Under the pieces are notes generated by a model, which saw only the letters and a program-made list of their open reading frames with translations, was not told the DNA's origin and did no database searches. Of a stretch of DNA of 64,000 nucleotides, positions 5,210-54,339 are shown piece after piece; within the stretch, counting starts at the first letter, position 1; each line of letters opens with the position of its first letter. This stretch comes from an uncultured Alphaproteobacteria bacterium (GTDB taxonomy: Bacteria > Pseudomonadota > Alphaproteobacteria > HIMB59), in NCBI GenBank assembly GCA_902599045.1, contig CACKEA010000001.1, positions 268,985 to 332,984 on the forward strand, in the 5' to 3' direction. Both the position numbers and the translations under genes were made by a program.

Positions 5210-6324
5210 CTTGAGTTCACCAAGTTATCTTTATGCACAATCTCATCTTCACGAACAAAACCCAGAATTTTGCTGAATTCTTTTGATTTTCTGCCTTTAA
5301 TCTTATCCATTTCCTTAAAATCGTAATTAATCATACCTCTGGCCAATTCTTTTTTATTGTAATGGATCGAAACAGTATCGCCACGATAAAACTTTCCATC
5401 AATAGATTTCACACCGATTGCTAATAGACTTGAATTCTTCTTCAGTGCTTTTGAGGCACCTTCATCAATATGAACAATTGCTTTTTGAATTGGTCTATTC
5501 CAAATCCATTGCTGCCGACTTGTGAGAATATTTTTAGAAGGATGAAACCATGTTGAGGATGTTGGATGAATGTTACCTAGTGGATTATTGACTAGTCCAT
5601 TTGATATTATCATAGTGGATCCAGACTGAATACAAAGCTTAGCAGCATTTATTTTTGCTAACATTCCACCAGAACCAAATTCACTCAAATCTTTATCTAT
5701 ATATTTTTCTATTTCTTGATCCACTTCTTCAACAGATGTAATCAACTTAGCATCTGTTGATTTTTTTGGATTGGATGTATAAAGCCCATTCACATCAGAT
5801 AATAAAATTAGTAACTCAGCAGATAGTGCATTCGCAATCATTGCTGAAAGTTTATCATTGTCACCAAATCGAATTTCTTCTGTTGAGGTAGTGTCGTTCT
5901 CATTAATAATTGGAACAACATTTAAATCCATTAAAGAGTAAATTGTATTTCGGATGTTGAGATATTTTCTTCTTTCATTTAAATCTTCAGCTGTGATTAA
6001 AATCTGTGAACTTTGAATATTAAATTTAGCAAAAGCTTTTTGCCATTGCTGTGAGAGTTGTATTTGACCTATAGATGCCGCAGCTTGCTTTTCATGCAAA
6101 TTAGTTAACTTTTTTTTGGAGAGAATATTTCTCCCAAGAGCGATGGCACCAGAGGAGACGATAATAATTTTAGATCCTTTTTTTTGGAGTTTCTGAACAT
6201 CCTCAATTAGTGAGGTGAGCCATTTTTTTCTCAGCACATGCTTTTCATTAACTAAAATATTAGAGCCAACTTTGATGACAATAACTTTTGATTTTTTGGC
6301 TAATTCTGTGAATTTTTTATTCAT
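5206..6324 (-). CDS. proB: Glutamate 5-kinase
   Basis: 372 residues with an amino-acid-kinase domain (VIVIKVGSNILV, IIIVSSGAIALGR, PIINENDTTSTEEIRFGDND, LSDVNGLYTSNP, GSGGMLAKINAAK) and a C-terminal PUA domain from about residue 280. It phosphorylates glutamate as the first, feedback-controlled step of proline synthesis. It overlaps obgE by 8 bases upstream and proA by 4 downstream. Confidence 0.95.
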   Translation of the reverse strand: MNKKFTELAKKSKVIVIKVGSNILVNEKHVLRKKWLTSLIEDVQKLQKKGSKIIIVSSGAIALGRNILSKKKLTNLHEKQAAASIGQIQLSQQWQKAFAKFNIQSSQILITAEDLNERRKYLNIRNTIYSLMDLNVVPIINENDTTSTEEIRFGDNDKLSAMIANALSAELLILLSDVNGLYTSNPKKSTDAKLITSVEEVDQEIEKYIDKDLSEFGSGGMLAKINAAKLCIQSGSTMIISNGLVNNPLGNIHPTSSTWFHPSKNILTSRQQWIWNRPIQKAIVHIDEGASKALKKNSSLLAIGVKSIDGKFYRGDTVSIHYNKKELARGMINYDFKEMDKIKGRKSKEFSKILGFVREDEIVHKDNLVNSR

Positions 6325-34649: not shown

Positions 34650-34654
34650 AATTG

Positions 34655-35188
34655 ATGATCAGACTCATTCTCTTGTTATTAACATTCCCATTAATTGCTT
34701 ATTCAGATAAACACATCCCTTATTATAAGTCTTTAGCTCATGATGAGTCTTGGCTACGTCATTATCCAGAAAATCAAGATTTGAGTAAACAAACAGAGAA
34801 ATTTCTTCTCACAGAAGAAAATATGCCAGTGAAGATTATTGAAGAGTTTCAAAATAGTTGGAGTTCATATACTGACTGGTATCGTATTGAATTATTTAAT
34901 GGGATACAGGGTTGGATTGCACATAATCAGTTATCTAAAAAAAGAACTTTGTTAGTCTTAGAGGATACTGAATTATATGCTTTGAAATCTTATGATCCTG
35001 AGTCTCTCTTAACTATTCAAAAAGGATTAATTCTTGCACCGAAAATTGTAAACTTATTAGAGGTTAATGAGACAATGGTAAAGATAAGTATTCCAGAAGG
35101 TAAAAAATCTTCGATTAAAGGTTGGATACCTATAGATAAGAGACTGTGGGGTGTTTCTAATACAGAAACACAATTTATCAATGATTAG
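34655..35188 (+). CDS. Exported bacterial SH3-domain protein
   Basis: The ATG at 34,655 (over a TTG three bases earlier) gives 177 residues with signal peptide MIRLILLLLTFPLIAYS. Two SH3-like repeats are visible: the first with DWYRIELFNGIQGWIAHNQL and the second with SIKGWIPIDKRLWG. Such periplasmic SH3 proteins are of unknown function and may bind the wall. It overlaps the SOUL gene by 8 bases. Confidence 0.78.
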   Translation: MIRLILLLLTFPLIAYSDKHIPYYKSLAHDESWLRHYPENQDLSKQTEKFLLTEENMPVKIIEEFQNSWSSYTDWYRIELFNGIQGWIAHNQLSKKRTLLVLEDTELYALKSYDPESLLTIQKGLILAPKIVNLLEVNETMVKISIPEGKKSSIKGWIPIDKRLWGVSNTETQFIND

Positions 35189-35735
35189 ATACTTACTATT
35201 GTTGTTACTCATGATACAAAACTTGATGGCTTACACTGAATCTCCTTATAAGATTGTTTATCAAACGGACACTTATGAAATTCGATACTATGAGGAACGC
35301 TTAATAGTAGAAACTCAATACTCTAATCAAAATAATGGATTTCAGAAACTCTTTAAATACATTTCAGGTAACAACAAACAAAGTCAAAAAATTGAAATGA
35401 CCACACCTGTTAATGTTACAGAAATTGAAAATCAGTTTGTTATGCAATTTTACTTACCTAAAAGATTTCAACAAAATGAGATACCTCTACCCTCAGATAA
35501 ATCATTAAAAATTTCAACAATAGAACCAGGATATTTTGCAGTAATTAGATATTCAGGTTTTGCATCAGATAAAAATTTTCACAAACATAGAGAAATTTTA
35601 AAAAGCGAATTAAATGCCGATGATATAAAAGTCTTAGGTTCAGCTATAAAAGCTACATATGATGGCCCTTTCACACTTCCCAATCTTCGAAGAAATGAAG
35701 CAATTTTTTTAGTTAATTGGAAGGAGCCTCTTTGA
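35181..35735 (+). CDS. SOUL/HEBP-family haem-binding protein, exported
   Basis: The ATG at 35,181 gives 184 residues starting with signal peptide MIRYLLLLLLMIQNLMAY. YKIVYQTDTYEIRYYEERLIVET, FQKLFKYISGNNKQSQKIEM, TPVNVT, and the C-terminal LPNLRRNEAIFLVNW are the SOUL domain landmarks. It probably binds haem or another tetrapyrrole in the periplasm. Its stop overlaps the next ATG. Confidence 0.88.
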   Translation: MIRYLLLLLLMIQNLMAYTESPYKIVYQTDTYEIRYYEERLIVETQYSNQNNGFQKLFKYISGNNKQSQKIEMTTPVNVTEIENQFVMQFYLPKRFQQNEIPLPSDKSLKISTIEPGYFAVIRYSGFASDKNFHKHREILKSELNADDIKVLGSAIKATYDGPFTLPNLRRNEAIFLVNWKEPL

Positions 35736-36886
35736 TGCAAAGTAAAAACACAGATAAAAATTTTGGATTTGGCACTCAAATTAGAAAATCTCCTTTTTTT
35801 GATGCTACAGTTAGATGGGGGGCCACTGGCTTTTCTGTTTATAATCATATGTATATACCAAGGGATTTTGGTGACCCTGAGAAAAATTTTTGGAATTTAG
35901 TTAATGATGCGATTTTATGTGATGTAGCAGTTGAAAGACAAGTTGAGATAACCGGTCCTGATGCATTCCATTTTATTCAATTACTTACACCGCGTGATCT
36001 TAGCAAATTATCTATAGGGCAGTGTAAATATGTACTTATTACCAATGAAAAAGGGGGAATACTCAATGATCCTGTCTTACTACGCCTCGGTGAAAATCAT
36101 TTTTGGTTATCTCTATCTGACAGCGATATCTTACTATGGGCTCAAGGCGTTGCAGTAAATTCTGGACTAAATGTTAGTATCGAAGAACCAGATGTTTCTC
36201 CTCTTCAGTTGCAAGGACCAAAGTCAAGGGAGATTATGGTAAAATTATTTGGAGAAAATATTAGAGATTTAAAATATTACTGGCTCAAAGAATTAGAATT
36301 GGATGGTATTCCCTTAGTTGTATCTCGCACTGGATGGTCAACAGAACTTGGATACGAATTATTTTTACGTGATGGAACTCAGGGAGATAGATTATGGGAG
36401 ACGATCATGATGGCAGGGAATGAATATGGTCTTCAGCCTGGTCACACATCAAGCATTCGCCGTATCGAAGGAGGTATGTTGTCATATCACGCGGATGCAG
36501 ACATACACTCGAACCCGTTTGAGATGGGACTTGAAAGATTAGTATCTTTGGATAGTGATATTAATTTCATTGGTAAAAAAGCACTTATTGAAATTCAAAA
36601 AAAAGGAATAAAACGTCAACAAATTGGTTTGGAAATAGAGGGAGATTCTTTGACAGGCCCAAACACAATATTTTGGAAAATATTCTGTGATGATAAAATC
36701 ATTGGAAAAGTAACTTCTGCAGTATATTCACCACGATTAGAAAAAAATATAGCATTGGCTATGGTTGATAAAAATTACACTGAAATAGGAATGAAATTAT
36801 TAGTTGAAATTTATGGGGTTCTTAGAGATGCAATCATAGTAGAAAAGCCTTTTTTTGATCCTAAAAAAGCGCTTCCAAGTTCCTGA
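35735..36886 (+). CDS. DmdA/GcvT-family aminomethyltransferase (first copy)
   Basis: The ATG at 35,735 has AAGGAG at suitable spacing and gives 383 residues. Features are YNHMYIPRDFGDP, DVAVERQVEITGPDAF, FWLSLSDSDILLWAQG, LQLQGPKSREIM, SRTGWSTELGYELFL and SIRRIEGGMLSYHADAD. These align with dimethylsulfoniopropionate demethylase DmdA and differ from glycine-cleavage T protein in the folate-domain spacing. It would transfer a methyl or methylene group to tetrahydrofolate. It is less DmdA-like than the copy at 42,829; the substrate could be a related methylated compound. Confidence 0.75.
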   Translation: MQSKNTDKNFGFGTQIRKSPFFDATVRWGATGFSVYNHMYIPRDFGDPEKNFWNLVNDAILCDVAVERQVEITGPDAFHFIQLLTPRDLSKLSIGQCKYVLITNEKGGILNDPVLLRLGENHFWLSLSDSDILLWAQGVAVNSGLNVSIEEPDVSPLQLQGPKSREIMVKLFGENIRDLKYYWLKELELDGIPLVVSRTGWSTELGYELFLRDGTQGDRLWETIMMAGNEYGLQPGHTSSIRRIEGGMLSYHADADIHSNPFEMGLERLVSLDSDINFIGKKALIEIQKKGIKRQQIGLEIEGDSLTGPNTIFWKIFCDDKIIGKVTSAVYSPRLEKNIALAMVDKNYTEIGMKLLVEIYGVLRDAIIVEKPFFDPKKALPSS

Positions 36887-39269: not shown

Positions 39270-39875
39270 TTAAATTTTTGGTAATCCCAAAACTTCGCTT
39301 TTTTTTATAAATTCCTCTTTATACGGAGGTCTTTTAAAAATCTCTTTTATCATAGGCTTAAAAAAGTCTAGATCTTTGTTCTCATATTCTGGGTCAAAAG
39401 ATTTTTGATCCCATCTTTCGCAGAAGTCAGCGCATGTTTGAAAATAAATATTATCTTTAAATTTATCCCTAGCATTTTTATCCCAACCATAATGATGGGC
39501 GTAATAAATCATTTGAAAAATTCCATGATGTTCAACCACCCAAGTTACTTCTTCTCTAACATAAGGTCTTATAACCTCAGCAGAAAATCTATCGTGATTT
39601 TGAGGAGCGAGTCCATCACCAATATCATGAAGTAATGTACCAACAATCCAATCAATATCAGCCCCATCGTTATAAGCTCTTGTTGCTGATTGAAGTCCAT
39701 GATCCAGTCTGGTAATTTTATAGCCCTCCATAGTATTCTGTCCTTGTCTAGATAGTTCTTCGATAATTCTTTCGTAAGTCAGAGAGACATATCTTTTCTC
39801 GTATTCTTGAAGTAATAAATAATCATCCTTATCACCATCTTTCATATGTTTAAATTTTACATTCTTTTCAACCAA
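39270..39875 (-). CDS. HD-domain diiron oxygenase, TmpB/PhnZ-like
   Basis: 201 residues. The metal ligands follow the MIOX/PhnZ oxygenase order: His59 (TRLDHGLQSA), His83-Asp84 (TLLHDIGDGL), His94 (QNHDRFSA), His116/117 (VEHHGIF) and a distal Asp (TCADFCERWD). PhnZ and TmpB cleave the C-P bond of 1-hydroxylated phosphonates with a mixed-valent diiron centre. The gene overlaps by 8 bases a BBOX-like dioxygenase gene, the same pairing as tmpA-tmpB. Specific substrate is inferred from that pairing. Confidence 0.78.
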   Translation of the reverse strand: MVEKNVKFKHMKDGDKDDYLLLQEYEKRYVSLTYERIIEELSRQGQNTMEGYKITRLDHGLQSATRAYNDGADIDWIVGTLLHDIGDGLAPQNHDRFSAEVIRPYVREEVTWVVEHHGIFQMIYYAHHYGWDKNARDKFKDNIYFQTCADFCERWDQKSFDPEYENKDLDFFKPMIKEIFKRPPYKEEFIKKSEVLGLPKI

Positions 39876-40998
39876 AATTTTTAGATCCTTTTTCTATATA
39901 TTTTCTATGTAAATGTCTAAGTTTGCCATCCGTCGAGTCAAAATCTAGATAACAACCTTGAAGGTGTCTGGCACCTTCATTTGAATCGTATGCGGTTCTT
40001 CCATGTAGCAGTCTGTGATTATCAAACATCATAATGTCCCCAGGTTTAAGCTTAAAACTAATCTCAAAATCTGATGAGGAATATAAATCACTTAGTAGTT
40101 TTCTAGCTTTATAGAAAGTTGTAAGTCTTTTTTGATCAATTGGCGGAACATAATCAACTCTTGTGCTATATCTTACTTGTTTGTAATCTCCCTCTTTATC
40201 CAACTCAATAAGTTCTCCCCAATTTTCTAAAATAATATCTTTATCTTGAAATTGATATCTCAGATTAGTTTTAGTCAAAGACTCAAAAGCTTCAGGGTTA
40301 TTGACCTTAATATACTCAGCAACTGCAAAACCATCTACCAAAGTTGAAAAACCACCACTCACCTCATTTTTTAGACAATGTAAGAATTGAATCCCAGGTG
40401 CAGCTGGCTTTCTATAGGGGTTGTCCGTATGAGGAGGAAGAGCGATAGGCTTATAAGCTAAATCATTGGGGTTAGGTTTGGACATCACATCAAAATACTC
40501 TCCAAAATTAGTTACTTTTACAGGGCCTATTGAACTCACAAATTTTAGTAAATATTGATCTTTTGTTGGAACGTTTTTAATAATTATAAAACCATATTTA
40601 TAAAAATCCACTAGAAGTCTATACATCGACTCTTTCTCAACCATATCTTCTTCAAACTCTATATTTGGAAATACTTTTAAATTTGAGTTCCAAAGTATTC
40701 TTTTTGGTATAGGGCCGCGTTTGTTTTTGTCGTTATCAAACTCTATTAGAAGATTTTGAATATTATATTTGCCTTTGGCCCCATCATTGAATTCAATATT
40801 AAGTTTTTCTTCAAAAATTTTTGCTTTTTTAATTTGTAAATCTAATTTTATGGAAGAGGGTTCATAGAGTCTTTGATTTGTATCTTTGTCGATATAGTCA
40901 TTTCCTGGTAATCTCTCTCTTAACCAAATAGGGTGTAAATCATAATCATGATTTTGGTGTGTCACTTTTAGTGAGTCACTTGAAAACTGAACCTTCAT
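39868..40998 (-). CDS. Fe(II)/2-oxoglutarate dioxygenase, TmpA/gamma-butyrobetaine hydroxylase-like
   Basis: 376 residues: an N-terminal DUF971-type domain (HPIWLRERLPGNDYID, lacking the zinc cysteines of true gamma-butyrobetaine hydroxylase) and a TauD-like barrel. The iron ligands are His190 and Asp192 (PPHTDNPYRKP) and His332 (LLHGRTAY), with the 2-oxoglutarate Arg at about 344 (GARHLQGCY). TmpA hydroxylates 2-trimethylaminoethylphosphonate. The adjoining HD oxygenase strongly favours TmpA over carnitine synthesis. Confidence 0.8.
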   Translation of the reverse strand: MKVQFSSDSLKVTHQNHDYDLHPIWLRERLPGNDYIDKDTNQRLYEPSSIKLDLQIKKAKIFEEKLNIEFNDGAKGKYNIQNLLIEFDNDKNKRGPIPKRILWNSNLKVFPNIEFEEDMVEKESMYRLLVDFYKYGFIIIKNVPTKDQYLLKFVSSIGPVKVTNFGEYFDVMSKPNPNDLAYKPIALPPHTDNPYRKPAAPGIQFLHCLKNEVSGGFSTLVDGFAVAEYIKVNNPEAFESLTKTNLRYQFQDKDIILENWGELIELDKEGDYKQVRYSTRVDYVPPIDQKRLTTFYKARKLLSDLYSSSDFEISFKLKPGDIMMFDNHRLLHGRTAYDSNEGARHLQGCYLDFDSTDGKLRHLHRKYIEKGSKNFG

Positions 40999-41066: not shown

Positions 41067-41528
41067 TTAAGATGCTACTTTAAATATAGCCTCAATTTCA
41101 ACTGAGAAGCCTAAAGGAAGAGAGTTTACACCTACTGCTGCACGAGCATGAATGCCCTTTTCACCAAAGATTTTTTGCATAAGATCTGAACAACCATTAA
41201 TAACTTGAGGTTGTTGGGTAAAATTATCTAAACAGTTTACAAAACCTGTCAATTTTATTAATTGTTCTACTCTATCCAGATCTTTAATTTCATTTTTTAG
41301 GGCAGATAGTATTGCCAAACCACATTTTTGCGCATGTTCTTGAGCTAACTCCAAACTCAAATCTTTACCTACAACGCCTTTTGCAAAACTTCCATCCTCC
41401 ATAAGTGGACCTTGGCCTGAAATATAAGCAATATTATCGACCATTACACAAGGTTTGTAACTTCCAGCAGGTTTTGCAGGTTGGGGCAAAACAATTCCTA
41501 ACTCTTTTAACTTATCTTCTATACTCAC
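41067..41528 (-). CDS. ridA: RidA-family enamine/imine deaminase
   Basis: 153 residues of the longer YjgF/RidA subtype: MVDNIAYISGQGPLMEDG, LIKLTGFVNCLDNFTQQPQVINGCS, and GIHARAAVGVNSLPLGFSVEIEAIF with the catalytic-type arginine. It removes reactive enamines formed by pyridoxal-phosphate enzymes. It lies between the dioxygenase and an MFS carrier gene, with a one-base overlap to the latter. Confidence 0.88.
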   Translation of the reverse strand: MSIEDKLKELGIVLPQPAKPAGSYKPCVMVDNIAYISGQGPLMEDGSFAKGVVGKDLSLELAQEHAQKCGLAILSALKNEIKDLDRVEQLIKLTGFVNCLDNFTQQPQVINGCSDLMQKIFGEKGIHARAAVGVNSLPLGFSVEIEAIFKVAS

Positions 41529-42828: not shown

Positions 42829-43935
42829 CTATTTTGAAAAAGGTAATGTCGTCATCTGGGATTGCACTTCTAGATTATCAATCAACAGTGTTTTGACTTC
42901 ATCAAAATTCTGAAACTTGGTTTGTATCATTGCGATACCGAGACAGCATCCAAAATCAGGGCTAAAACAACCAGATCTTAATTCACCAATAATCTGCCCA
43001 TCTAATTGTATAGGTAGGTATTTTGTTATAGATAAATTATCAAGCTTAAGTTTTAAACCAATCAAGGACCTTTTTACTCCCTCTTGATTTTGTTTTTCTA
43101 GTACTGATTTTCCTAAGTAATCTATATCTGGATTAAAAGAAACGAAAGGATTTAGGCCACATTCAAGAGGAGTATCTTCCATGGTCATATCATTCCCAAA
43201 AGAAAGCAGACCTCCTTCGATCCTCTCAATTAAATTTGGACAGCCAGGTCTGACATTTAAATCTTCTCCATTAGTAATTAGGCTATCATAAAGATTAAGA
43301 CCAACTTCATCATCATCAACATAAATTTCAAATCCACCCTGTTTTGACCAACCTGATCTTGCGATTAATAATTTATGACCTTGAAATTCGTATCTTTTGA
43401 AATTAAAAAATTTTAATTTTTTAATTTCTTCACCAAAAACTCTCTCCATTAAATCAAAAGATTTAGGTCCTTGCACAGCTAATATATTGACATTAGGCTC
43501 AGTAATTTCGACATCTAAACTCATACCAATGGTAATACCTTTTGCATATAATAAAATATCTGAGTCAGCAATAGATAACCACCAAGTATCATCACTAACT
43601 TTCATAATCAATGGATCATTAAGAATTTTTCCTTTTTCATCAATAATTGGTGCATAGTAACAAAGATAATCTTTTGCATTAGATAGATCTCTACAAGTGA
43701 TCAGTTGTGTAAGCTTAGCAGCATCAGGGCCTTTAAATTGAACTTGTCTTTCTACTGATACATCCCAAACTTGGACATTATTTTTTAGATGAAGGCAGTC
43801 CTCCTCTACCCCTTTAAAAGATGCTGGTAAAATCATGTGATTATAAACTGTGTAAGATTGAACCCCATATTCTTCTATTCTTTTGGTATAGGGTGTGGAA
43901 CGAAGTCGGGCACTTTTAGCAATTAAATGGTTCAT
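42829..43935 (-). CDS. dmdA: Dimethylsulfoniopropionate demethylase (second DmdA-family copy)
   Basis: 368 residues, the length of Pelagibacter DmdA. YTVYNHMILPASF, HLKNNVQVWDVSVERQV, WWLSIADSDILLYAKGI, AVQGPKSFDLMERVFGEE, ARSGWSKQGGFEIYV and GCPNLIERIEGGLLSFGNDM follow the DmdA pattern. DmdA moves a methyl group from DMSP to tetrahydrofolate, giving methylmercaptopropionate. It is the better DmdA candidate of the two. It is head-to-head with a small TPR protein gene. Confidence 0.8.
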   Translation of the reverse strand: MNHLIAKSARLRSTPYTKRIEEYGVQSYTVYNHMILPASFKGVEEDCLHLKNNVQVWDVSVERQVQFKGPDAAKLTQLITCRDLSNAKDYLCYYAPIIDEKGKILNDPLIMKVSDDTWWLSIADSDILLYAKGITIGMSLDVEITEPNVNILAVQGPKSFDLMERVFGEEIKKLKFFNFKRYEFQGHKLLIARSGWSKQGGFEIYVDDDEVGLNLYDSLITNGEDLNVRPGCPNLIERIEGGLLSFGNDMTMEDTPLECGLNPFVSFNPDIDYLGKSVLEKQNQEGVKRSLIGLKLKLDNLSITKYLPIQLDGQIIGELRSGCFSPDFGCCLGIAMIQTKFQNFDEVKTLLIDNLEVQSQMTTLPFSK

Positions 43936-44516: not shown

Positions 44517-45572
44517 TTAGATGTTTAGCCTTAGAATAAAAATTAAAATACAAATAGTAAAAAAACTTACAAGACTATAAATCATTCCAATTACTATAGG
44601 GACATAGCTTTGACTGAATATTTTTTTTAAATTGATTGAAGCTCCAAGAGCAGTTAATGCCAAACCAAATAAAATAGTAATGATATCTTCTAAAATTTCT
44701 AAAACATTAATCCAAGTTACAGAATTTAAATAATATCTATCTATAATAGCACGAATGATAATTAAAACAATAAAACCTATTACAAATAATGGTATTGTAT
44801 TTTTAATTTTTTCCAAAATTGATAAATTTTTGGAAGTAGTTTTTTCTTCTCTATTTTTTAAAATAACTAAAGATGGAATTAATATTACTAGAAATAAATT
44901 TCTGAGTAGTTTAGTAATAGTAGCGATTTCAAGAACTTTACTATTTTGGTATAAATCATTATGCACCATTGCTGCAGCTAATACTTGACTTGTATCATGG
45001 ATACCTATACCTAAAAAAATCCCCTTAGCTAGATCAGATATAAAATACCATTCTATAAAAAAAGGATAAACCAATAAAGCTAAGCTGCCCCAGAGAACAA
45101 CAATCAATACTGCAGTACCAACATCATAATCTTTAGATTTTAAAACACTAGAGGAGACCATTATTGCTGTAACACCGCAAATGGATGTCCCAATTGCTAA
45201 TAATTTTGAGACTTCTTTTTGAATGGGCCATAACTTTGAAAGGGCCAAATATGTCAATAAAATCAATAAAATTGTAACTATTATTATCCCTAATGATTGA
45301 ATGCTAACACTAGCAAGTTGTGTAAAACTTATTTTTATACCCAGCAATACAATTGCTAATTGAAGAACATTTTTTTTTATAAAATCACGTCCTTGCAGAA
45401 TTTTTTCTGAAAATTGGAATAAATTAAAGAACAATATTCCCAAAATAAGACACAGTAAACTTAATGGCAAAACCGATATATTTAAAATATAACTAAAGGG
45501 TTGTCTTAAAAAAATTGCAATTATGTAAATTAGACAAATAACTGTAATTCCAGATATATTTCTACTAATCAT
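44517..45572 (-). CDS. YeiH/UPF0324-family membrane protein (putative sulfate exporter family)
   Basis: 351 residues with about ten membrane segments. LLGIKISFTQLASVSIQSLGIII, LAIGTSICGVTAIMVSSSVLKSKDYDVGTAV, and the FLGIGIHDTSQVLAAAMV loop are YeiH signatures. The family is listed as putative sulfate exporters but is little studied. It is the last gene of the operon that starts with the betaine-type transporter, overlapping the DUF3726-like gene by 8 bases. Confidence 0.87.
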   Translation of the reverse strand: MISRNISGITVICLIYIIAIFLRQPFSYILNISVLPLSLLCLILGILFFNLFQFSEKILQGRDFIKKNVLQLAIVLLGIKISFTQLASVSIQSLGIIIVTILLILLTYLALSKLWPIQKEVSKLLAIGTSICGVTAIMVSSSVLKSKDYDVGTAVLIVVLWGSLALLVYPFFIEWYFISDLAKGIFLGIGIHDTSQVLAAAMVHNDLYQNSKVLEIATITKLLRNLFLVILIPSLVILKNREEKTTSKNLSILEKIKNTIPLFVIGFIVLIIIRAIIDRYYLNSVTWINVLEILEDIITILFGLALTALGASINLKKIFSQSYVPIVIGMIYSLVSFFTICILIFILRLNI

Positions 45573-46161
45573 TATCTGTTAAACCAGCACCAGCTCCAGA
45601 AATTTTCTTCTCTTCTGTCTCTTCGACAAAAGTTTCAAGTGATAGTTTATATAGATAATCCCAAGAACTTTGGTCATATAAGCTTTTCCTTTGAGTTGAA
45701 ATGGTCAAAGAAAAATCTGATAAATTATTAGGTACCACATTTTGATCTATAAAAAAAATATCCCCAGGACTTATCGTGAAATTTAAATCTGATGACTTAA
45801 AATCAAAATAGAGTAAATTACTTTTTGCTGACTTAGATAAAAAAGGAAGAATTAATAGGGGCTCATTTATATTCTTGAACCTATGAATACGATGTAGGTC
45901 TTTATTATGAGATTGGTCAAGAAAAAAAATTCCAAAATGTATGGGGCATAGATTACTGGTATCAGATTGACCCACGTCCAAAAGTTTATTAAGTTTAGTT
46001 AAACCTAAATCAACTAATCTCTTAAAACTTTCTAATCCTTGAAATTTAGATTGCTCTAATACTCTTACTGCCTTCCCAGCTTCCTCAGAGACTCCCCAAC
46101 TTAGTCCCTTAGCACGCGATGATCTCTTAATTGTTGTTTCAATTTCATATAAGGAGTGCAT
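45565..46161 (-). CDS. DUF3726-like protein of unknown function
   Basis: The ATG at 46,161 shares a base with the upstream stop (TAATG) and gives 198 residues; an earlier in-frame codon is less likely. The N-terminus MHSLYEIETTIKRSSRAKGL then SWGVSEEAGKAVRVLE matches the DUF3726 pattern as I know it. The rest is beta-rich with a glycine/alanine C-terminus (ISGAGAGL). No catalytic motif is evident. It is locked between a 551-residue unknown and the YeiH-type exporter. Confidence 0.72.
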   Translation of the reverse strand: MHSLYEIETTIKRSSRAKGLSWGVSEEAGKAVRVLEQSKFQGLESFKRLVDLGLTKLNKLLDVGQSDTSNLCPIHFGIFFLDQSHNKDLHRIHRFKNINEPLLILPFLSKSAKSNLLYFDFKSSDLNFTISPGDIFFIDQNVVPNNLSDFSLTISTQRKSLYDQSSWDYLYKLSLETFVEETEEKKISGAGAGLTDND

Positions 46162-47816
46162 TAAGCTATCTTTTTGTAAGACCACGTATCATTAGATGTG
46201 CTTATTTCTTTCATTAAGGGAGCTCCTTGATACATAGTAATTCTTACCCATCGATCAGAACGAGGATCAAATCGTGTTGCACCAAAAAAGGATAGCTTTA
46301 GTCGAAGCATATCAACTGGGATTAAGGTTTTTGAGATAGTGTTATCTTGAATTTCAGAGTAGGGCAGTTTTTCACATATCAGAACCCTTCTTAATATATG
46401 GCGATATTCTTGATTTTTTAACAAATAATAGCCTAAGTCTCTTTTTAAATCATAAGATTTTAAATCACCATAAAGTGCACTTATATCTCTTGCTATAGCT
46501 AGGGGTAGCTCTAATTCTGAGCCTTCCTCAGAAAATCTATCTGACATCCGAGGCTCTTGTTTATTTTTTGAGTAATACCAAAAATTAAAAATATTTTCTT
46601 TGTTATCAAAATCAATATTTAGCAACCAGGTATATTGATTTTCAATTAATTTACACACCTCATCAATTGTCTTTGATGTATCAATATCAAAGTATTCATC
46701 TTCATTTATAGACATTTCATAACTGAGAGGTTCTACAATATCTGGATAAACCTCCATCATTAATGAAACAATAAACTCACAGCATTCAGATTGAGTATTT
46801 GCTTCTATCCACTCGTAAATAGAATTCCAAAAATAATTTTTCAAGGTATATGATGAATAAAAATTTTGAAAACTATCTAAGTCCTTTAAAAGCTGTTTAT
46901 TTTTTTTCTTTTGGTAATCACTTTCCGTTTTCCAATATTTAATATTCTCTTGAGTAGCAGAAAGATATGACTCAAAAATATCTTTATCTTTTTGACTCAC
47001 AGATAAGATTGATCGAATGGCTTTTAATGCTTTTTCTTTCGCAATGATCCATTGATTTAATAGAGCTGGATGATTTACTATAAATGGTGCCATTCCCAAA
47101 CCTGTAGAATTACCAATACCTAAATTTCTAGCAATATCTTCGCTAAGTTTAGTTGCTTTATCAGGTGAGCGGAAATAAGCCACATGGTTGACGACATCGA
47201 AAGTAAATTGCCTTGCAAGGTATACAAGCATCATCTCCAACCTAAATGGTCCTTTAAGTTCTTCTCTATCTTGAATTTTAATTCTATCAGCTAATCCAAA
47301 TTTTCCAGAGCCATAAACAGCAGTAGTTCGATAAAGATATCCCACGCTGTATAAAAGCTTAGTATCTGGTTGTATACCTTTAGACAGTTTATCTACTACA
47401 TGTTCAAAAACTCGTATTGATTTGTTAGCTCGAGATAGGCAAAGTTCCTTTTCACTCACTCTTCCCTGCTCTTGGAGAGGAACATTAGCTTTAAGCCTTT
47501 CAATATCCTCTTTAGCTGGAACTCCATCAAATAAAACAAAAGATGCATCCCATTTCGTAGCTATAACTCGATCAGATCTTTCGCTATCCTCAATATGATT
47601 AGAAAAACAAATCAGGGAGTATTGTTTTTGCCCATTATTTACAACATAAACAATATGACCAAAGCCTTGATTGTCTAAGTTGAATTCTTTAGTTTGAAAT
47701 TCCCAATTCTTAAACTCTCTTATAAAACTTCTAAGAAAAGACAATTTAGATTGATGAAAGGACCCAAGTCGGTCTAATTTCATGACTAATTCTGGTTTTC
47801 TTAAATCTATTTGCAT
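46161..47816 (-). CDS. 551-residue conserved-looking protein of unknown function
   Basis: A soluble protein without signal peptide or membrane segments. Striking stretches are LYRTTAVYGSGKFGLADRIK (about residues 161-180), GPFRLEMMLVYLARQFTFDV (189-208) and ARNLGIGNSTGLGMAPFIVN (229-248), which look strongly conserved and glycine-rich, followed by a charged helical region (270-330). I cannot assign a fold or reaction. Start and stop both overlap neighbours in TAATG fashion (dipeptidase-family gene upstream, DUF3726-like downstream), so the three are co-translated. Confidence 0.85.
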   Translation of the reverse strand: MQIDLRKPELVMKLDRLGSFHQSKLSFLRSFIREFKNWEFQTKEFNLDNQGFGHIVYVVNNGQKQYSLICFSNHIEDSERSDRVIATKWDASFVLFDGVPAKEDIERLKANVPLQEQGRVSEKELCLSRANKSIRVFEHVVDKLSKGIQPDTKLLYSVGYLYRTTAVYGSGKFGLADRIKIQDREELKGPFRLEMMLVYLARQFTFDVVNHVAYFRSPDKATKLSEDIARNLGIGNSTGLGMAPFIVNHPALLNQWIIAKEKALKAIRSILSVSQKDKDIFESYLSATQENIKYWKTESDYQKKKNKQLLKDLDSFQNFYSSYTLKNYFWNSIYEWIEANTQSECCEFIVSLMMEVYPDIVEPLSYEMSINEDEYFDIDTSKTIDEVCKLIENQYTWLLNIDFDNKENIFNFWYYSKNKQEPRMSDRFSEEGSELELPLAIARDISALYGDLKSYDLKRDLGYYLLKNQEYRHILRRVLICEKLPYSEIQDNTISKTLIPVDMLRLKLSFFGATRFDPRSDRWVRITMYQGAPLMKEISTSNDTWSYKKIA

Positions 47817-48784
47817 TAATCAAACTTTTTATAAAAATTGTACCAATTATTACCCAAGATGTCGTGCGTCTCATCTTCGCTGAAGCCAACATCTTTCAGA
47901 CCTTTATGGAGATTTTCAAAGCCTCTGGCATCTTCAAACCATGAGGGTTGTGGAGGAAAACCTGCATTATCTAAAGTTCCTTCACCAAAATCTTTTGTCT
48001 TTGTCCAAGTACCATTTCTCATCCATTCAACTATGCTATCTGGATGATGAATACAAAGATCTGAACCAATACCAATTTGCTTTATAGATATTTTTTTTGT
48101 ACTTTCTGCAATCATCTCACAAAATGATTGTAGAGTGCAATTTGAAGCATCTTTAAGATGGTGAGGATATAATGAGAACCCGATCATTCCACCACTATCG
48201 TTTAATGCTTTTAATACCTTATCTGATTTATTTCGAACCCCCTGATGCCAAAACAAAGGATTGGCATGACTAACAACAATTGGCTGAATAGAAATTTCAA
48301 TTGCTTCCAATGTTGAAAATTCTGCGGAGTGGGACATATCAATAATCATATTTACCCGGTTCATTTCTTTGATAACCTCTCTCCCCATTCGAGTAATACC
48401 ACTATCACGTTTCTCGTAACATCCAGTAGCTAGTAATGATTGATTATTGTAAGTAAGTTGCATAAATAGTACGCCCAATTTCTTTAGAGACTCAACATAA
48501 TCAATATTATCTTCAACAGGAGAGCAATTTTGTAACCCGTAAAAAATAGCAGTCTTATTCTCGAGCCTTGCTTTAGCAATATCTTTTGAACTTTTGCCCA
48601 AAAAAATTAAATCTTTATTTTTTTCAAAATAATTATTCCAAGTCTTTATATTAGAGAGAACTTCGTCGTAATCCTCGTGATAACAAATCGTGGCGTGAAC
48701 TGCATCTAATTGTGCTTCGTGATTAATTTCAAATATTTCTCTAGACCAGTTACAATACTGAAGATTGTCGACTCGAAAATTCAT
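47816..48784 (-). CDS. Membrane-dipeptidase (peptidase M19/COG2355) family protein
   Basis: 322 residues, no signal peptide. The M19 pattern is clear in IIDMSHSAEFSTLEAI and PIVVSHANPLFWH (His152, His173), LKALNDSGGMIGFSLYPHHL and IGIGSDL. The N-terminal HxD metal pair is missing (the start reads VDNLQYCNW), and the bridging glutamate position reads FYGLQNCSP with Gln. This is therefore probably not a classic dizinc dipeptidase. It is the fifth gene of the betaine-type transporter operon and may act on an N-substituted amino acid. Confidence 0.82.
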   Translation of the reverse strand: MNFRVDNLQYCNWSREIFEINHEAQLDAVHATICYHEDYDEVLSNIKTWNNYFEKNKDLIFLGKSSKDIAKARLENKTAIFYGLQNCSPVEDNIDYVESLKKLGVLFMQLTYNNQSLLATGCYEKRDSGITRMGREVIKEMNRVNMIIDMSHSAEFSTLEAIEISIQPIVVSHANPLFWHQGVRNKSDKVLKALNDSGGMIGFSLYPHHLKDASNCTLQSFCEMIAESTKKISIKQIGIGSDLCIHHPDSIVEWMRNGTWTKTKDFGEGTLDNAGFPPQPSWFEDARGFENLHKGLKDVGFSEDETHDILGNNWYNFYKKFD

Positions 48785-48791
48785 CCGAGAA

Positions 48792-50231
48792 TTATACGGA
48801 CCCAGAATTAATGTAGGAAGTTTTTACTTGAGAGTAAAAGTCTCTTGCGTATGTTCCTTGTTCACGAGGACCAAAACTTGAGGCTTTTCTTCCACCAAAA
48901 GGCACATGATAGTCTAAGCCAGCGGTTGGTAAATTAACAGTTGTTACACCCGTTTTAATGTTTTGCTTAAAAAACTCAGCTTTAGCTAGAGACCGAGTAA
49001 TAATACCACTAGAAAGTCCGAAATCTGTTTCATTAGCAATTTCAAGAGCATGATCTAAGTTCTTTGTTGGAATTACACATGCGATCGGTCCAAACATTTC
49101 CTCTTGGTTAATACGAGATTTATTATCTCCATCAATAAACAAGGTTGGTTCCATATAATATCCTAGGGTTCTCATATTCATAGGGTTTCCTCCAAACTCA
49201 AGTTTAGCCTCACCTTTACCAATATCGATATACTCCAAGTTTGACTCAAACTGAGATTGATTTGATGCAGGTCCCATTTGTGTCCCTTCATCTAAGGCAT
49301 GTCCTACTTTTAAATTTTTTATACTTTCTAATAAGCCTTTAACAAAATCTTTATAAATATTTTCATGAACAATTAATCTTGAGGAAGCAGTACACTTTTG
49401 ACCCGTTCCACCATATGCTCCATTAACTGCACATGTAATGGCTGTTTTCAAATCTGCATCATCCATAACAACTAGAGGGTTTTTAGAGCCCATTTCCATT
49501 TGCATTTTTTTCATGGTGGATGAGGAGTTTTGATAAAGTTTTTTTCCTACCTCAACAGAACCAGTAAAAGTTATTGCTGCTATCTTAGGATGAGTTGATA
49601 TTTTGTGGCCGATATCACTTCCAGAACCTAAAACTAAATTAAATAAACCAGCAGGGATATCTTGTTTAGCAATTATCTCAGTTAAAGCGATAGCACTTCC
49701 TATTGTTAGAGAGGCTGGTTTTAAGATCACTGCATTACCACACATCATTGCAGGTGCTGCTTTCCATGCGGGAATTGCTATCGGAAAATTCCATGGTGAA
49801 ATAATACCAATTACACCAAGAGGCTCTCTTGAGATTTCAACCTGAAATCCAGGTCTAGTTGAAGGAATTTTCTCACCATATAAACGTAAACACTCTGACC
49901 CGTAATACTGAAATTGTTGGCCAGCTCTTGCTACTTCCCCAATACCCTCGTTTAATGGTTTCCCCTCTTCGCGAGATAATAATTCTCCAATTTGTTGAGA
50001 CTTTTGGATTAGTTCATTACCTATCTTTATAAGTATCTGTGATTTCTTTTCAATTCCTACGGTCTCCCACTCTTTTTGAGCGATAGCGGCAGAACGAATA
50101 GATTGTTCAAATTGTTCATCAGTACAAGTAGTATACTCATCGATCAATTCGGAAGTGTCAGAAGGGTTAATATTTTTAATTGAACTGGTGCCCTCGACCC
50201 ACTGGCCTGCAATATAGTTAGATTTTTTCAT
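48792..50231 (-). CDS. NAD(P)-dependent aldehyde dehydrogenase
   Basis: 479 residues. GVIGIISPWNFPIAIPAWKAAPAMMCGNAVILKPAS, the catalytic glutamate in QMEMGSKNPLVVMD, the cysteine in GGTGQKCTASSRL, and EEMFGPIACVIP are complete. The sequence style is of the 2-oxoglutarate-semialdehyde/succinate-semialdehyde/betaine-aldehyde group. Three bases separate it from the transporter ATPase, so its substrate probably derives from the imported compound. Confidence 0.92.
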   Translation of the reverse strand: MKKSNYIAGQWVEGTSSIKNINPSDTSELIDEYTTCTDEQFEQSIRSAAIAQKEWETVGIEKKSQILIKIGNELIQKSQQIGELLSREEGKPLNEGIGEVARAGQQFQYYGSECLRLYGEKIPSTRPGFQVEISREPLGVIGIISPWNFPIAIPAWKAAPAMMCGNAVILKPASLTIGSAIALTEIIAKQDIPAGLFNLVLGSGSDIGHKISTHPKIAAITFTGSVEVGKKLYQNSSSTMKKMQMEMGSKNPLVVMDDADLKTAITCAVNGAYGGTGQKCTASSRLIVHENIYKDFVKGLLESIKNLKVGHALDEGTQMGPASNQSQFESNLEYIDIGKGEAKLEFGGNPMNMRTLGYYMEPTLFIDGDNKSRINQEEMFGPIACVIPTKNLDHALEIANETDFGLSSGIITRSLAKAEFFKQNIKTGVTTVNLPTAGLDYHVPFGGRKASSFGPREQGTYARDFYSQVKTSYINSGSV

Positions 50232-50234
50232 ATA

Positions 50235-51257
50235 TTATCTTTTTAAGATCTCGGAAAGTTTTTTTGTAGATAAAAAACCTACATTTTTTTTGTCTTTGTC
50301 TTGAATAATTAAGTTATCGGGTTTATCAGAAATAACTTTATCAATAAAACGATCAATAAAATCATCTTGGTCTATTGGCATAGCCCCACTAAGATCTTGG
50401 CCATTAATTTCACTCATTATATGTTTTGCTTTAATCACTCTTGCTCTATTTACATCTTCTACGAAGTCTTTTACATACTTTGTTTTTGGATTTAGCAAAA
50501 TCTCTGCGGGTATTCCCTCTTGATCCATAATTCCATCTTTTAAAATAGCAATACGGTCTCCAATTTTTAAAGCCTCGTCAAGGTCATGTGTAATAAAAAC
50601 AACTGTTTTATGAAGTTCGTCCTGAAGTTCTAAAAGTATATCTTGCATATCTTTACGGATTAAAGGATCCAGTGCACTAAAAGCTTCATCCATTAAAAGA
50701 ATATCACCGTCATTAGTTAAGGCCCTTGCTAAACCAACGCGTTGTTGCATTCCACCAGATAAATGTTGAGGATATTTATCTTCATAACCTGATAAACCAA
50801 CTCTTTCAATCCAACGAAGAGCACTTTTGTTAGCATCCTCTTCACTAATATTCTGTATATGAAGACCAAAAATGGTATTTTGCAAAACAGTTTTATGTGG
50901 AAGTAAGGCAAAACGTTGGAAGACCATTGCGGTTTTGCTTCTTCTAAAACTTCGAAGTTCCTCTTCATTCATTTTTAAAACTTCATCACCATCGACAGTT
51001 ACACTCCCATCTGTGGGTTCAATTAACCTATTGATATGTCTAATTAAAGTTGATTTTCCAGATCCAGATAATCCCATAACAACCTGAACAGATTGAGCGT
51101 GAATATCGAGGTTAATATCTTTTAGTCCAAGAACATGATTATGTTTTTCCAGCAATTCATCTTTTCCAACTCCATTTTTTACGTTCTCCATTGCACCTTT
51201 GGGATTTTTTCCAAAGATTTTATAAAGATTTTTAATCTGTATTTTTGCTTCTGACAT
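50235..51257 (-). CDS. Betaine/proline-type ABC transporter, ATP-binding subunit
   Basis: 340 residues of the ProV/OpuAA type. KNLYKIFGKNPKGAMENV is the ProV-like start, VMGLSGSGKSTLIRHINRL is Walker A, LSGGMQQRVGLARAL the signature and ILLMDEAFSALDPLIR Walker B. A CBS-like C-terminal region follows (about 275-340). It drives import of a quaternary ammonium or sulfonium osmolyte. It adjoins the permease gene with no gap. Confidence 0.92.
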   Translation of the reverse strand: MSEAKIQIKNLYKIFGKNPKGAMENVKNGVGKDELLEKHNHVLGLKDINLDIHAQSVQVVMGLSGSGKSTLIRHINRLIEPTDGSVTVDGDEVLKMNEEELRSFRRSKTAMVFQRFALLPHKTVLQNTIFGLHIQNISEEDANKSALRWIERVGLSGYEDKYPQHLSGGMQQRVGLARALTNDGDILLMDEAFSALDPLIRKDMQDILLELQDELHKTVVFITHDLDEALKIGDRIAILKDGIMDQEGIPAEILLNPKTKYVKDFVEDVNRARVIKAKHIMSEINGQDLSGAMPIDQDDFIDRFIDKVISDKPDNLIIQDKDKKNVGFLSTKKLSEILKR

Positions 51258-52148
51258 TTATACTATTTTACCGGAGCGATGTTTTTGAATACGTTGACCA
51301 TAAGACTGAGATACTCTATCAAAAACAATAGCCACGATTACTATGGCAAGTCCATATAATACACCTTTGGTAAAATATTGATTATATATAGATTGTAAAA
51401 CTGGTTGGCCTAAGCCTTTCACACCTATCATTGAAGCAATAATAACCATTGCCAAAGCCATCATGATGGTCTGATTAATGCCAGCAAAAATTGTTGGTAA
51501 AGCCAAAGGGAGTTGAACCTGATATAGCTTTTGTTTTTTGGTAGCACCAAATGCATCTGCAGCTTCCAAAGCCTCTTTATCCACTTCTCGAATACCTAAA
51601 TTAGTGAGTCTAATTAAAGGAGGTATTGCATAAATTACAACAGCAATCAATCCTGGTATCTTTCCAATGCCCATTAACATTACGATAGGTATCAAATACA
51701 CAAATGGTGGCATTGTTTGCATGACATCTAAAATTGGGGTAACTATACTTTGCGTACGATCAGATCTAGACATTGCTATTCCTGTCGGTAGGCCTATAAC
51801 AACGGACATAATCACTGAAGTAAGTATGATAGCAATAGTGCTCATTGTTTCATCCCACATCCTAAAGTACCCTATAAATACAAAAGCTAAAAAAGTTCCA
51901 ATAACTAACTTAATACTCCTACTTCCCCAATAGGTAAGACCTAAAAGAACAATCATAAAAATTGGCCAAGGTGTAGCAATGAGGGTTTTTTCAAAAAAAA
52001 CTAGCATTTTAAGGAGAGGATCAAACATTGCATCAATTAAATCTCCCCACTCACGAGCAAAATCTTTATAACTAGCATCAACGCCCTTTTTGAATTCGCG
52101 AAACTGCTTGTTAGGCATTTCTGGAAAATCTGTTAGAAAATTAGACAT
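51258..52148 (-). CDS. Betaine/proline-type ABC transporter, permease subunit
   Basis: 296 residues of the ProW/OpuAB type: a hydrophilic N-terminal region, then six or seven membrane segments with TPILDVMQTMPPFVYLIPIVM and the ATPase-contact loop KEALEAADAFGATKKQKLYQVQLPLALPTIFAG. It is separated from the binding-protein gene by a hairpin with a U-tract. Confidence 0.92.
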   Translation of the reverse strand: MSNFLTDFPEMPNKQFREFKKGVDASYKDFAREWGDLIDAMFDPLLKMLVFFEKTLIATPWPIFMIVLLGLTYWGSRSIKLVIGTFLAFVFIGYFRMWDETMSTIAIILTSVIMSVVIGLPTGIAMSRSDRTQSIVTPILDVMQTMPPFVYLIPIVMLMGIGKIPGLIAVVIYAIPPLIRLTNLGIREVDKEALEAADAFGATKKQKLYQVQLPLALPTIFAGINQTIMMALAMVIIASMIGVKGLGQPVLQSIYNQYFTKGVLYGLAIVIVAIVFDRVSQSYGQRIQKHRSGKIV

Positions 52149-52167
52149 GTATGTATAAATTCATTTC

Positions 52168-52197
52168 AAAAAAAACCTGGGGACATAGTCCCCAGGT
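52168..52197 (-). terminator. Intra-operon terminator/attenuator between binding protein and permease genes
   Basis: On the minus strand a perfect ten-base stem (ACCTGGGGAC ... GTCCCCAGGT, three-base loop) is followed by about eight T residues. Placed 3' of the binding-protein gene and before the permease gene, it should make binding-protein mRNA more abundant than the rest. Confidence 0.88.
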
Positions 52198-52213
52198 AAA
52201 GTAATACAAGCTT

Positions 52214-53212
52214 TTATAGAGAGTTTTGTATATCTAGTTTTTGGTCAAATGGTACCCATTGTCCCCAAACATTAGAAAAATTCTCTAAGAAATAGTAAGC
52301 TGTCTCTTCAGCCTCAGCTTGATTTTCTTCTTTCCATGCGAGTATTTGACTTAGAAGAGTATTGTTAAAGCTTCTCTTCTCCAAGTATCCCATAACTTCA
52401 GAATTTCCTAGCATATCTTTACCAACATAAGTTTCCACTGTTGAGGCAGGATATTTATTTCTGCCTGGAGCTTCTACATTTAGATCATTGATTTCTGAAA
52501 GCCAAGTTTCTTGGTTGTGATCAACACCTTCATCAAGTTTTGTCATATCATACTTACCAAGGATAGCTGTTGGGCCCCAGTAGTAACCCATCCAACCTTC
52601 ACCTTTGTTGTATGCCTCACCCATTGCACCTGAAAGAGCACCACCTGAACCTGGATCAATAAATTCAAATCCAGCATCAGCCATACCGAATGCCTTAAAC
52701 ATTTGAGTTGTAGTAATCTGACAGTTCCAACCAGCAGGACATCCGTAGAAACCAGCTACACTTGAATCTTCAGGGTGTGGGAATAAATCAGGTCTTGCAA
52801 GAGCATCATCGATAGTAACAATACCATGTTCTTGAGCTATGTATGTTGGTATCCAAATTGCTTCCTCACCACCATCCTCAAACACTTTACCAACGTTTTT
52901 GATTAAACCCTCAGCTTCAGCAGGATCTAAGATTGGCTTAATATTTTGAGACCATAATTCAGGAGCTATTGAAGGCTCACCTTTTTCAACTAGAGATGTT
53001 GCTGTTGGCATAGTATCTCCAGGAATTAATTCCACTTCACATCCAAGTCCTCTTAAGAGAACAGCGTCGATGTGTGCGATGACCTGAGCAGAAGCCCAGT
53101 TCATTTCTGCAATTGTAACATTACTGCAGTGTGCCCCAGCTTTAACATTAGAAGAAATGGAGGTTATCCCTAATGCAAGGAAGAGCGCGGTAAATAATCG
53201 TAAAATTGACAT
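52214..53212 (-). CDS. Betaine-type ABC transporter, periplasmic substrate-binding protein
   Basis: 332 residues. The signal peptide ends near NVKA; CSNVTIAEMNWASAQVIAHI starts the mature OpuAC/ProX-type fold. Several aromatic residues that could form a cation-binding box are visible (APELWSQN, GYYWGPTAILG, NVWGQWVPF). Ligands in this family include glycine betaine, choline, carnitine, TMAO and DMSP; the sequence alone does not decide. AGGAGG just before the ATG marks strong translation, as usual for such binding proteins. Confidence 0.92.
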   Translation of the reverse strand: MSILRLFTALFLALGITSISSNVKAGAHCSNVTIAEMNWASAQVIAHIDAVLLRGLGCEVELIPGDTMPTATSLVEKGEPSIAPELWSQNIKPILDPAEAEGLIKNVGKVFEDGGEEAIWIPTYIAQEHGIVTIDDALARPDLFPHPEDSSVAGFYGCPAGWNCQITTTQMFKAFGMADAGFEFIDPGSGGALSGAMGEAYNKGEGWMGYYWGPTAILGKYDMTKLDEGVDHNQETWLSEINDLNVEAPGRNKYPASTVETYVGKDMLGNSEVMGYLEKRSFNNTLLSQILAWKEENQAEAEETAYYFLENFSNVWGQWVPFDQKLDIQNSL

Positions 53213-53340: not shown

Positions 53341-54339
53341 TTGATTATATTGCCTTATTTTAAAAAATCTCTGGCCAAAAATTTAGCTTCTGAAAAGCTG
53401 TTAAAATCAGGTTGCTCTGTAAAAAATTCCAAGGGAATAATTGATGGTATAATTGACGCCGAACATTGCAACATCAAAAGTCACGGTTTTCACTATTTAC
53501 CAATATATTGCAATCATCTTAAGATAGGTAAGATAAAAGGTAAAGCTTCCCCAACATTTGAACAAATTTCTAATTCATCGATCAAAGTTGATGCAGATAA
53601 TGGTTTTGCACACACAGCAATTTATATCGGTTTAAAGCATTTAATTGAAATGAGTTCCAACGAGGGAATTTCCTGCATGTCTATTTACAATTCATATAAC
53701 TGTGGAGTTCTTGGTTTTCACACCAAAAGAATAGCTGAAAAAAATTTAATCGGATTAGGTTTCACAAATGCACCAGCTTCAATAGCACCTATTGGAGGTA
53801 TTAAACCAGTGATTGGAACTAACCCTTATTCAATAGCAGTACCCTTAAATGGAAAACCTTCAATTGTTATTGATCAATCTGCCAGCGTTGTAGCAAAAAG
53901 TGAAATTTCTGTAAGAGCAAAAACTGACGAGCCAATACCAAAGGGATGGGCATATGATAAAGATGGTAAAGTTACGACAAATGCAAAAGAGGCTCTTAAA
54001 GGAACAATGGCTCCTAGTGGTGGTTACAAAGGTTTTAGCACAGGATTATTGGTTGAAATCTTAACAGCATGTGTAGCTGGAGGAAACTTAGGCACACAAG
54101 CCTCATCATTTGCAGGTGAGGATGGCGGCCCCCCATCTACAGGTCAATTTTTTATAGCTATTAATCCAAAAAAATTTAATCAAGATTTTGAATCTCGTTT
54201 AGAGCAACTTCTTATTTCCATTGCATCCCAAGAAGGTTCCAGAGTGCCTGGTTCAAAGCGATTGAAAGCATTTGAAGAAAATATTAATAAAGATATTTTT
54301 ATTTCAGATGAACTTATGAGTCGTATCGATCAAATTTAA
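53341..54339 (+). CDS. Malate/L-lactate dehydrogenase (Ldh_2) family oxidoreductase
   Basis: 332 residues, possibly from TTG. DAEHCNIKSHGFHYLPIY contains the family SHG motif, SIYNSYNCGVLGFHTKRIAEKN and IGTNPYSIAVPL follow, with MAPSGGYKGFSTGLLVEILT near the C-terminus. Relatives reduce cyclic imino acids (pyrroline/piperideine-2-carboxylate) or oxidise 2-hydroxy acids with NAD(P). It is divergent from the transporter operon across 128 bases, so it may belong to the same pathway. Confidence 0.87.
   Translation: MIILPYFKKSLAKNLASEKLLKSGCSVKNSKGIIDGIIDAEHCNIKSHGFHYLPIYCNHLKIGKIKGKASPTFEQISNSSIKVDADNGFAHTAIYIGLKHLIEMSSNEGISCMSIYNSYNCGVLGFHTKRIAEKNLIGLGFTNAPASIAPIGGIKPVIGTNPYSIAVPLNGKPSIVIDQSASVVAKSEISVRAKTDEPIPKGWAYDKDGKVTTNAKEALKGTMAPSGGYKGFSTGLLVEILTACVAGGNLGTQASSFAGEDGGPPSTGQFFIAINPKKFNQDFESRLEQLLISIASQEGSRVPGSKRLKAFEENINKDIFISDELMSRIDQI

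Follow-up and report, generated by a model that had tools for sequence, protein, structure and literature searches.

The N-methylpyridinium ring of trigonelline is opened by TgnA and TgnB, which passages of PMC8269262 judge unlikely to act on homarine (N-methylpicolinate). Excerpts of the literature describe homarine as a phytoplankton osmolyte that R. pomeroyi is reported to draw down quickly, and mention that an early report of its high abundance was later corrected downward. A homarine catabolic pathway of environmental bacteria has been published (Nat Microbiol 2026, 11:1531, as cited in passages of PMC13390433), and N-methylglutamate dehydrogenase (Mgd) is stated in the same passages, from 2026, to take part in homarine catabolism. 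Here, we describe an eight-gene operon in a 64,000-nucleotide stretch of DNA from an uncultured alphaproteobacterium of the HIMB59 lineage (contig CACKEA010000001.1 of assembly GCA_902599045.1, positions 268,985 to 332,984); this whole stretch is called the window, and positions are counted within it. The operon combines two parts: a catabolic cassette, which comprises an aldehyde dehydrogenase (ALDH), an M19-like protein, a protein of 551 residues, a DUF3726 protein and a divergently encoded Ldh_2 protein, and an importer-YeiH-DmdA module. We consider it rather probable that the cassette degrades homarine or a very close N-methyl heterocyclic betaine, and that it is co-transcribed with a betaine importer in a locus of the importer-YeiH-DmdA type.

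A preprint abstract on homarine reportedly describes an operon, homABCDER, that is made up of five catabolic genes and a regulator; it reportedly yields N-methylglutamate and glutamate, and reportedly occurs in Rhodobacterales, SAR11 and SAR116. The name homABCDER was not mentioned in the literature searched. The cassette together with a LysR gene seems to fit five genes and a regulator. The original prediction had held that no described pathway uses this set of genes; with the homarine pathway published in 2026 this is probably out of date, the genes of that pathway being presumably those of the cassette.

The cassette is recurrent in Alphaproteobacteria, often near a LysR gene, a betaine importer or Mgd-type genes. 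Within the order, 86 of 150 genomes contain a relative of the 551-residue protein, and a sample of 385 genomes from the whole class gave 53, the window's own genome being included in both counts. In 58 mapped loci bearing the 551 gene (the window is among them and one contig, L035 = L108, is counted twice), an M19 match was found in 55 and a DUF3726 match in 49; the misses are truncated or diverged loci. The order LysR-ALDH-M19-(BCCT)-551-DUF3726-Ldh_2 is conserved, save for the absence or relocation of single genes, on five named plasmids of Rhodobacterales and Hyphomicrobiales and in Shinella. It is seen in this form in the Phaeobacter and Tritonibacter plasmids. The Aliiroseovarius plasmid has BCCT at the end, and in Sulfitobacter the Ldh_2 gene is not annotated. 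In Aminobacter and Sinorhizobium sp. RAC02 a betaine ATP-binding cassette (ABC) importer follows the cassette, and in the latter purU does so as well. Shinella has ALDH, M19 and 551 together, with Ldh_2 and the importer on the opposite strand. The importers matched or annotated beside cassettes that bear ALDH are of the BCCT or OpuA type.

In the window, the eight open reading frames were found where the original prediction had placed them, all on the minus strand. Re-measured in the order of transcription, the gaps are 65 bases between the binding protein and the permease, 0 between the permease and the ATPase, 3 between the ATPase and ALDH, 7 between ALDH and M19, -1 between M19 and 551, -1 between 551 and DUF3726, and -8 between DUF3726 and YeiH. 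Both -1 junctions are one-base overlaps of the TAATG type. The terminator proposed after the binding-protein gene is also present, as a minus-strand hairpin at 52175-52197 with a 10-bp stem (7 G-C pairs) and a T7 tail, in the gap between the binding protein and the permease. The operon is real and its gene order is conserved: the order recurs in loci of the same genus, and that of the cassette recurs across Alphaproteobacteria. One gene escaped the earlier description. DmdA, the dimethylsulfoniopropionate (DMSP) demethylase, lies just beyond the operon on the same strand (42829-43935; NF009133, 504.9 bits against a cut-off of 410).

The division into two modules became clear from loci that have no cassette. 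Among twelve loci taken from genomes without a 551 match, ten are intact between CysE and DmdA (L189-L195 and L198-L200). All ten have the order CysE-ATPase-binding protein-permease-YeiH-DmdA, with no match to ALDH, M19, 551, DUF3726 or Ldh_2 between CysE and DmdA, and YeiH directly precedes DmdA on the same strand in each of them; in one (L190) YeiH is split into two overlapping frames. YeiH is missing from five of the 14 distinct cassette loci that reach DmdA (L033, L034, L035, L107 and L109). Because the cassette-free loci keep the importer, YeiH and DmdA while YeiH is dispensed with in these cassette loci, the operon is divided into two modules. YeiH tracks DmdA rather than the cassette, and therefore it was placed outside the cassette and rejected as a member of its pathway. 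In L109, the interval between DUF3726 and DmdA holds a DddP-like gene in place of YeiH; this M24-family gene (DMSP lyase type; 3990-5270 of that locus) scores 360.2 bits against a cut-off of 600.

The Ldh_2 gene (53341-54339, plus strand) belongs with the cassette. Its product matches PF02615 with 293.9 bits (cut-off 38.8) over positions 6-332 of the 333 of the profile. The genus was represented by 38 genomes, 18 with the 551 gene and 20 listed without it. An Ldh_2 orthologue is present in 18/18 of the former and 2/20 of the latter (Fisher 5.7e-9, the relatedness of the genomes not being corrected for). In one of the two exceptions the contig ends inside M19, and in the other inside Ldh_2. Thus, the coupling of a betaine-type importer to a conserved catabolic set and the membership of Ldh_2, both put forward in the original prediction, held, whereas the export of a pathway by-product by YeiH did not.

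The YeiH-type transporter itself (44517-45572, minus strand) exceeds the threshold of PF03601, with 185.8 bits, and falls below that of the NCBIfam sulfate-exporter model TIGR00698 (120.6 bits; cut-off 232.6). Its position directly before DmdA suggests a sulfur-anion exporter tied to DMSP demethylation. Among the papers listed by a literature search, none contains both YeiH and dmdA.

The importer consists of an OpuAC-type substrate-binding protein (52214-53212; Pfam OpuAC, 167.7 bits), a permease of the ProW/ChoW type (51258-52148; BPD_transp_1, with ChoW and ProW as the best models, both below cut-off) and a ProV-type ATPase (50235-51257; ABC_tran, and TIGR01186 with 339.7 bits against a cut-off of 326.6), all on the minus strand. 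The closest solved relative of the binding protein is the DMSP-binding DmpX (7yle; phmmer E 1.5e-57). Seven of the eight pocket residues of DmpX are kept (W35, T64, W84, E113, W152, Y200 and W202). After removal of near-copies and own-genome duplicates, the eight positions were alike in 10 of 11 cassette-linked binding proteins of the genus (L033 has G at 153) and in 10/10 cassette-free ones. The pocket is therefore of no use for discriminating between DMSP and homarine, the same residues being present with and without the cassette. In other orders, too, binding proteins linked to the cassette retain nearly the same set, between five and seven of the eight residues, and for this reason also the pocket leaves the ligand unsettled. 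The cassette-linked binding proteins of the genus fall into three lineages, one of which, that of L033, also contains proteins that are encoded next to 551 in other orders. This means that the importer has been exchanged too.

The ALDH (48792-50231, minus strand; Pfam Aldedh) is closest to models of 2,5-dioxovalerate or alpha-ketoglutaric semialdehyde dehydrogenase: it scores 483.4 bits with NF042993 and 486.5 bits with NF052305. The cut-offs are 770 and 750, respectively, so that these are its nearest models and not families of which it is a member. The same two models score best for four cassette ALDHs, two of which are from this genus and one of which is a near-copy. Dehydrogenases of 2-oxoglutarate semialdehyde serve hydroxyproline breakdown. 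For the Ldh_2 protein, the best PDB match is delta1-piperideine-2-carboxylate reductase (1wtj, 142.7 bits), which we take to be the enzyme also named N-methyl amino acid dehydrogenase DpkA; the lead is slight, as sulfolactate dehydrogenase 2x06 follows at 135.9 bits.

The M19-fold protein (47816-48784, minus strand) shares with membrane dipeptidases of the M19 family, such as renal dipeptidase, the domain PF01244 (Peptidase_M19, 235.1 bits) and a His at two of the five ligand positions, but its canonical zinc site is altered. The canonical binuclear zinc ligands of these dipeptidases are H, D, E, H and H. In 54 homologues (53 different; the fragment in L098 is excluded), H30 is kept in 50 and H173 in all 54. 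At positions aligned to solved dipeptidases, the bridging Glu is replaced by Q in 54/54 and the second His is kept in 1/54. The Asp of the H-x-D motif is replaced by T in 53/54, as judged by motif position only, since it falls outside the dipeptidase alignments. The full set of five ligands is thus not found in the window-type proteins, which have lost at least two, and probably three, of them. Canonical dipeptidase action is unlikely because of this loss, and the M19-like protein is probably not a dipeptidase.

The 551-residue protein (46161-47816, minus strand) belongs to no Pfam family, and no relative was identified for it, whether among PDB sequences (E up to 10) or in viral contigs scanned with a pattern. 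Among 62 homologues, 35 positions are at least 97% conserved, and many of the conserved residues are arginines. H249 (61/62) is the sole His at these positions, and hence a multi-histidine metal site, which had been considered, is unsupported. An AlphaFold2 model built on 13 close relatives was poor (mean pLDDT 53.7, the predicted local distance difference test score).

The DUF3726 protein (45565-46161, minus strand; PF12525 in 18/18 members) most likely starts at ATG 46161 and has 198 residues, because the open reading frame of a relative begins at the equivalent ATG; the mechanical list of frames had GTG 46185. Its C-terminal tail is conserved and is GAGAGLTDND-like. With a model of low confidence (pLDDT 62.1), the first four Foldseek matches all belonged to the Ldh_2 family, at E 0.048 to 0.17, and no Foldseek match at all reached E 0.001. 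The N-terminus matched Ldh_2 profiles weakly (E 0.034, probability 1.5%; with hhalign, E 0.0044, probability 7.9%). DUF3726 may descend from Ldh_2; these matches are only suggestive. The family was not mentioned in the literature searched.

A route from homarine can be drawn with these proteins, and we infer all of its steps. The importer would bring the zwitterion into the cell. The 551-residue protein, with the DUF3726 and M19-like proteins, would break the C5-C6 bond of the pyridinium ring, which would release the C6 carbon and yield an N-methyl C5 semialdehyde; the product might be N-formylated. Trigonelline breakdown proceeds via an N-formylated intermediate. The ALDH would then oxidise the C5 aldehyde, and deformylation, perhaps by the M19-like protein, would leave 2-(methylimino)glutarate, which Ldh_2 would reduce to N-methylglutamate. 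Finally, an N-methylglutamate dehydrogenase encoded elsewhere would yield glutamate and a one-carbon unit. By bond count, N-methylglutamate is reached from homarine through loss of ring carbon C6 and conversion of C5 to a carboxylate. The scheme would place the ALDH and Ldh_2 reactions close to those of their nearest relatives, and ring opening would fall to the orphan proteins. A tentative proposal, which we regard with some doubt, is that a new enzyme system for opening the N-methylpyridinium ring is made up of the 551-residue protein, the metal-altered M19 protein and DUF3726, the last as a reduced, Ldh_2-descended partner subunit, with chemistry that differs from that of the TgnA/TgnB oxygenase.

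The last step of the route touches on the neighbours of the cassette in other genera. Beside the Phaeobacter and Aliiroseovarius cassettes lie a gene for a GbdR-like AraC-type regulator (67% identity between the two genera) and genes that carry the annotation of sarcosine oxidase subunits. In R. pomeroyi, according to passages of PMC13390433, the AraC-type regulator TmaR adjoins mgdABCD. All six cassette-linked soxB genes tested (L041, L130, L139, L142, L144 and L145) fall in one clade of 20 rows with support 100, and the same clade holds three soxB genes located 15-22 kb from gmaS (L131, L137 and L139). The only soxB of the window's genome (L150) lies outside this clade. Mgd-type soxB is present in 14 of the 17 other cassette genomes of the genus.

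The cassette seems to have been acquired by horizontal transfer, as the 551 tree suggests. This tree comprises 56 loci and leaves out L036 (truncated) and six near-copies (L027, L028, L029, L030, L038 and L108). In it, the genus groups with two genomes of 1.2-1.3 Mb from another order, which in size and genes look SAR11-like (support 100), inside a Rhodobacterales-type clade, apart from the sister family f2 of the same order, which forms a separate branch. One locus of the sister family (L105, 9077-18885) has the 551 gene close to Mgd-type sox genes, to a true DmdA (541.4 bits; cut-off 410) and to a protein resembling ectoine hydrolase (470 bits; cut-off 613).

The likeliest reading is that the operon represents a variant form of the homarine operon published in 2026, set into a DMSP locus, with a gene-by-gene correspondence that we infer. 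Several observations weigh against this homarine reading. Growth of R. pomeroyi is reported, in an excerpted source, to be poorer on homarine than on trigonelline. No LysR match was found next to the cassette in the mapped loci of the window's genus. Mgd/sox-type genes lie within 10 kb of the 551 gene at only 9 of the 56 tree loci, and a soxB search and tree revealed no Mgd-type soxB in the window's own assembly. Within the genus, Mgd-type soxB occurs in 14/18 genomes with the cassette and 15/20 without it, which gives no co-occurrence signal; because so many cassette-free genomes carry it, Mgd is not specific to the cassette. For 13 of 25 genomes that carry 551, no ALDH belonging to this clade was found (E up to 1e-120), and outside the genus the occurrence of near Ldh_2 orthologues is patchy. 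The best NCBIfam model of the Ldh_2 protein is sulfolactate dehydrogenase, at 183.3 bits far under the cut-off of 500. The importer may also, or mainly, serve DMSP, since its pocket matches that of DmpX in seven of eight residues. In S. meliloti, a 551 homologue that shares 28.6% identity with the Phaeobacter protein is found beside another type of ABC importer, and the trio to which it belongs may serve other substrates. This trio, on pSymB (L125, 8947-12393), combines the distant homologue with a dipeptidase and a hypothetical protein, and is accompanied by IclR, the different ABC importer and an aminotransferase.

Three other explanations were weighed. The cassette might be a general module for nitrogen-containing acids, for which the importer sets the substrate in each lineage, another betaine in this genus. 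The importer near the 551 gene does vary (BCCT, OpuA-type ABC and the different type in S. meliloti), and ALDH and Ldh_2 are not always present; however, the 551-residue protein of the window falls within the Rhodobacterales-type clade, where some members have betaine importers and Mgd-type genes as neighbours, and this explanation seems unlikely. The similarity of the ALDH to 2-oxoglutarate-semialdehyde dehydrogenases of hydroxyproline breakdown, together with the genes for FAD (flavin adenine dinucleotide)-dependent demethylase-like proteins near several cassettes, would suit a different N-methylated ring betaine (hydroxyproline betaine or a pyrrolidine betaine, for instance), which would be demethylated elsewhere, opened to 2-oxoglutarate semialdehyde and oxidised by the ALDH. 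Such a route leaves the Mgd-type genes beside the cassette unexplained, and the known routes of this kind, as far as we are aware, do not need the two or three orphan proteins; we regard it as quite unlikely. It is highly improbable that the whole operon serves DMSP, with uptake by the importer, demethylation by DmdA, export of a sulfur anion by YeiH and handling of the downstream carbon by the rest. The adjoining DmdA, the occurrence of importer, YeiH and DmdA together without the cassette in all ten intact sister loci, and the likeness of the binding protein to DmpX with its seven kept residues speak for it, but the catabolic genes recur in many loci without a DmdA match, and sister genomes carry the importer-YeiH-DmdA locus without these genes. 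Furthermore, we know of no DMSP pathway that includes the M19, 551-residue and DUF3726 proteins.

The surroundings of the operon contain further genes of related character. A RidA/YjgF-like protein is encoded at 41067-41528, within the DmdA run and downstream of its MFS gene; the Sulfitobacter cassette likewise has a RidA gene at its flank. At 39270-40998, a dioxygenase closest to the model of TmpA, the 2-trimethylaminoethylphosphonate dioxygenase (343.2 bits; cut-off 400), adjoins an HD-domain protein of 201 residues, a possible TmpAB-like pair. The region 32991-36886 encodes a choline dehydrogenase (betA), which scores 762.2 bits against a cut-off of 732.1, and a second DmdA-like protein of the GcvT family (381.1 bits; cut-off 410). 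Together with the operon, these two look like an osmolyte-degradation island.

If the homarine reading is true, a group of ocean bacteria with small genomes can convert homarine to glutamate by means of a cassette that was gained next to a DMSP gene, with exchange of the importer. The reading singles out the likeliest candidates for opening the homarine ring and makes the enzymology of this step testable in a culturable Roseobacter. Two annotations are called into question, namely "membrane dipeptidase" for the M19-like protein and the assignment of YeiH to the pathway of the cassette.

In comparison with TgnA/TgnB, no protein of the operon has an oxygenase match above cut-off in Pfam or NCBIfam. 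The locus differs from the homarine pathway in that no LysR matched nearby, the Ldh_2 gene is divergent, and the cassette lies inside a DMSP-type locus with an ABC importer. With DmpXWV, as described in passages of PMC10030565, this importer has in common the closest solved relative of its binding protein and seven pocket residues, whereas the position of A153 is occupied by N.

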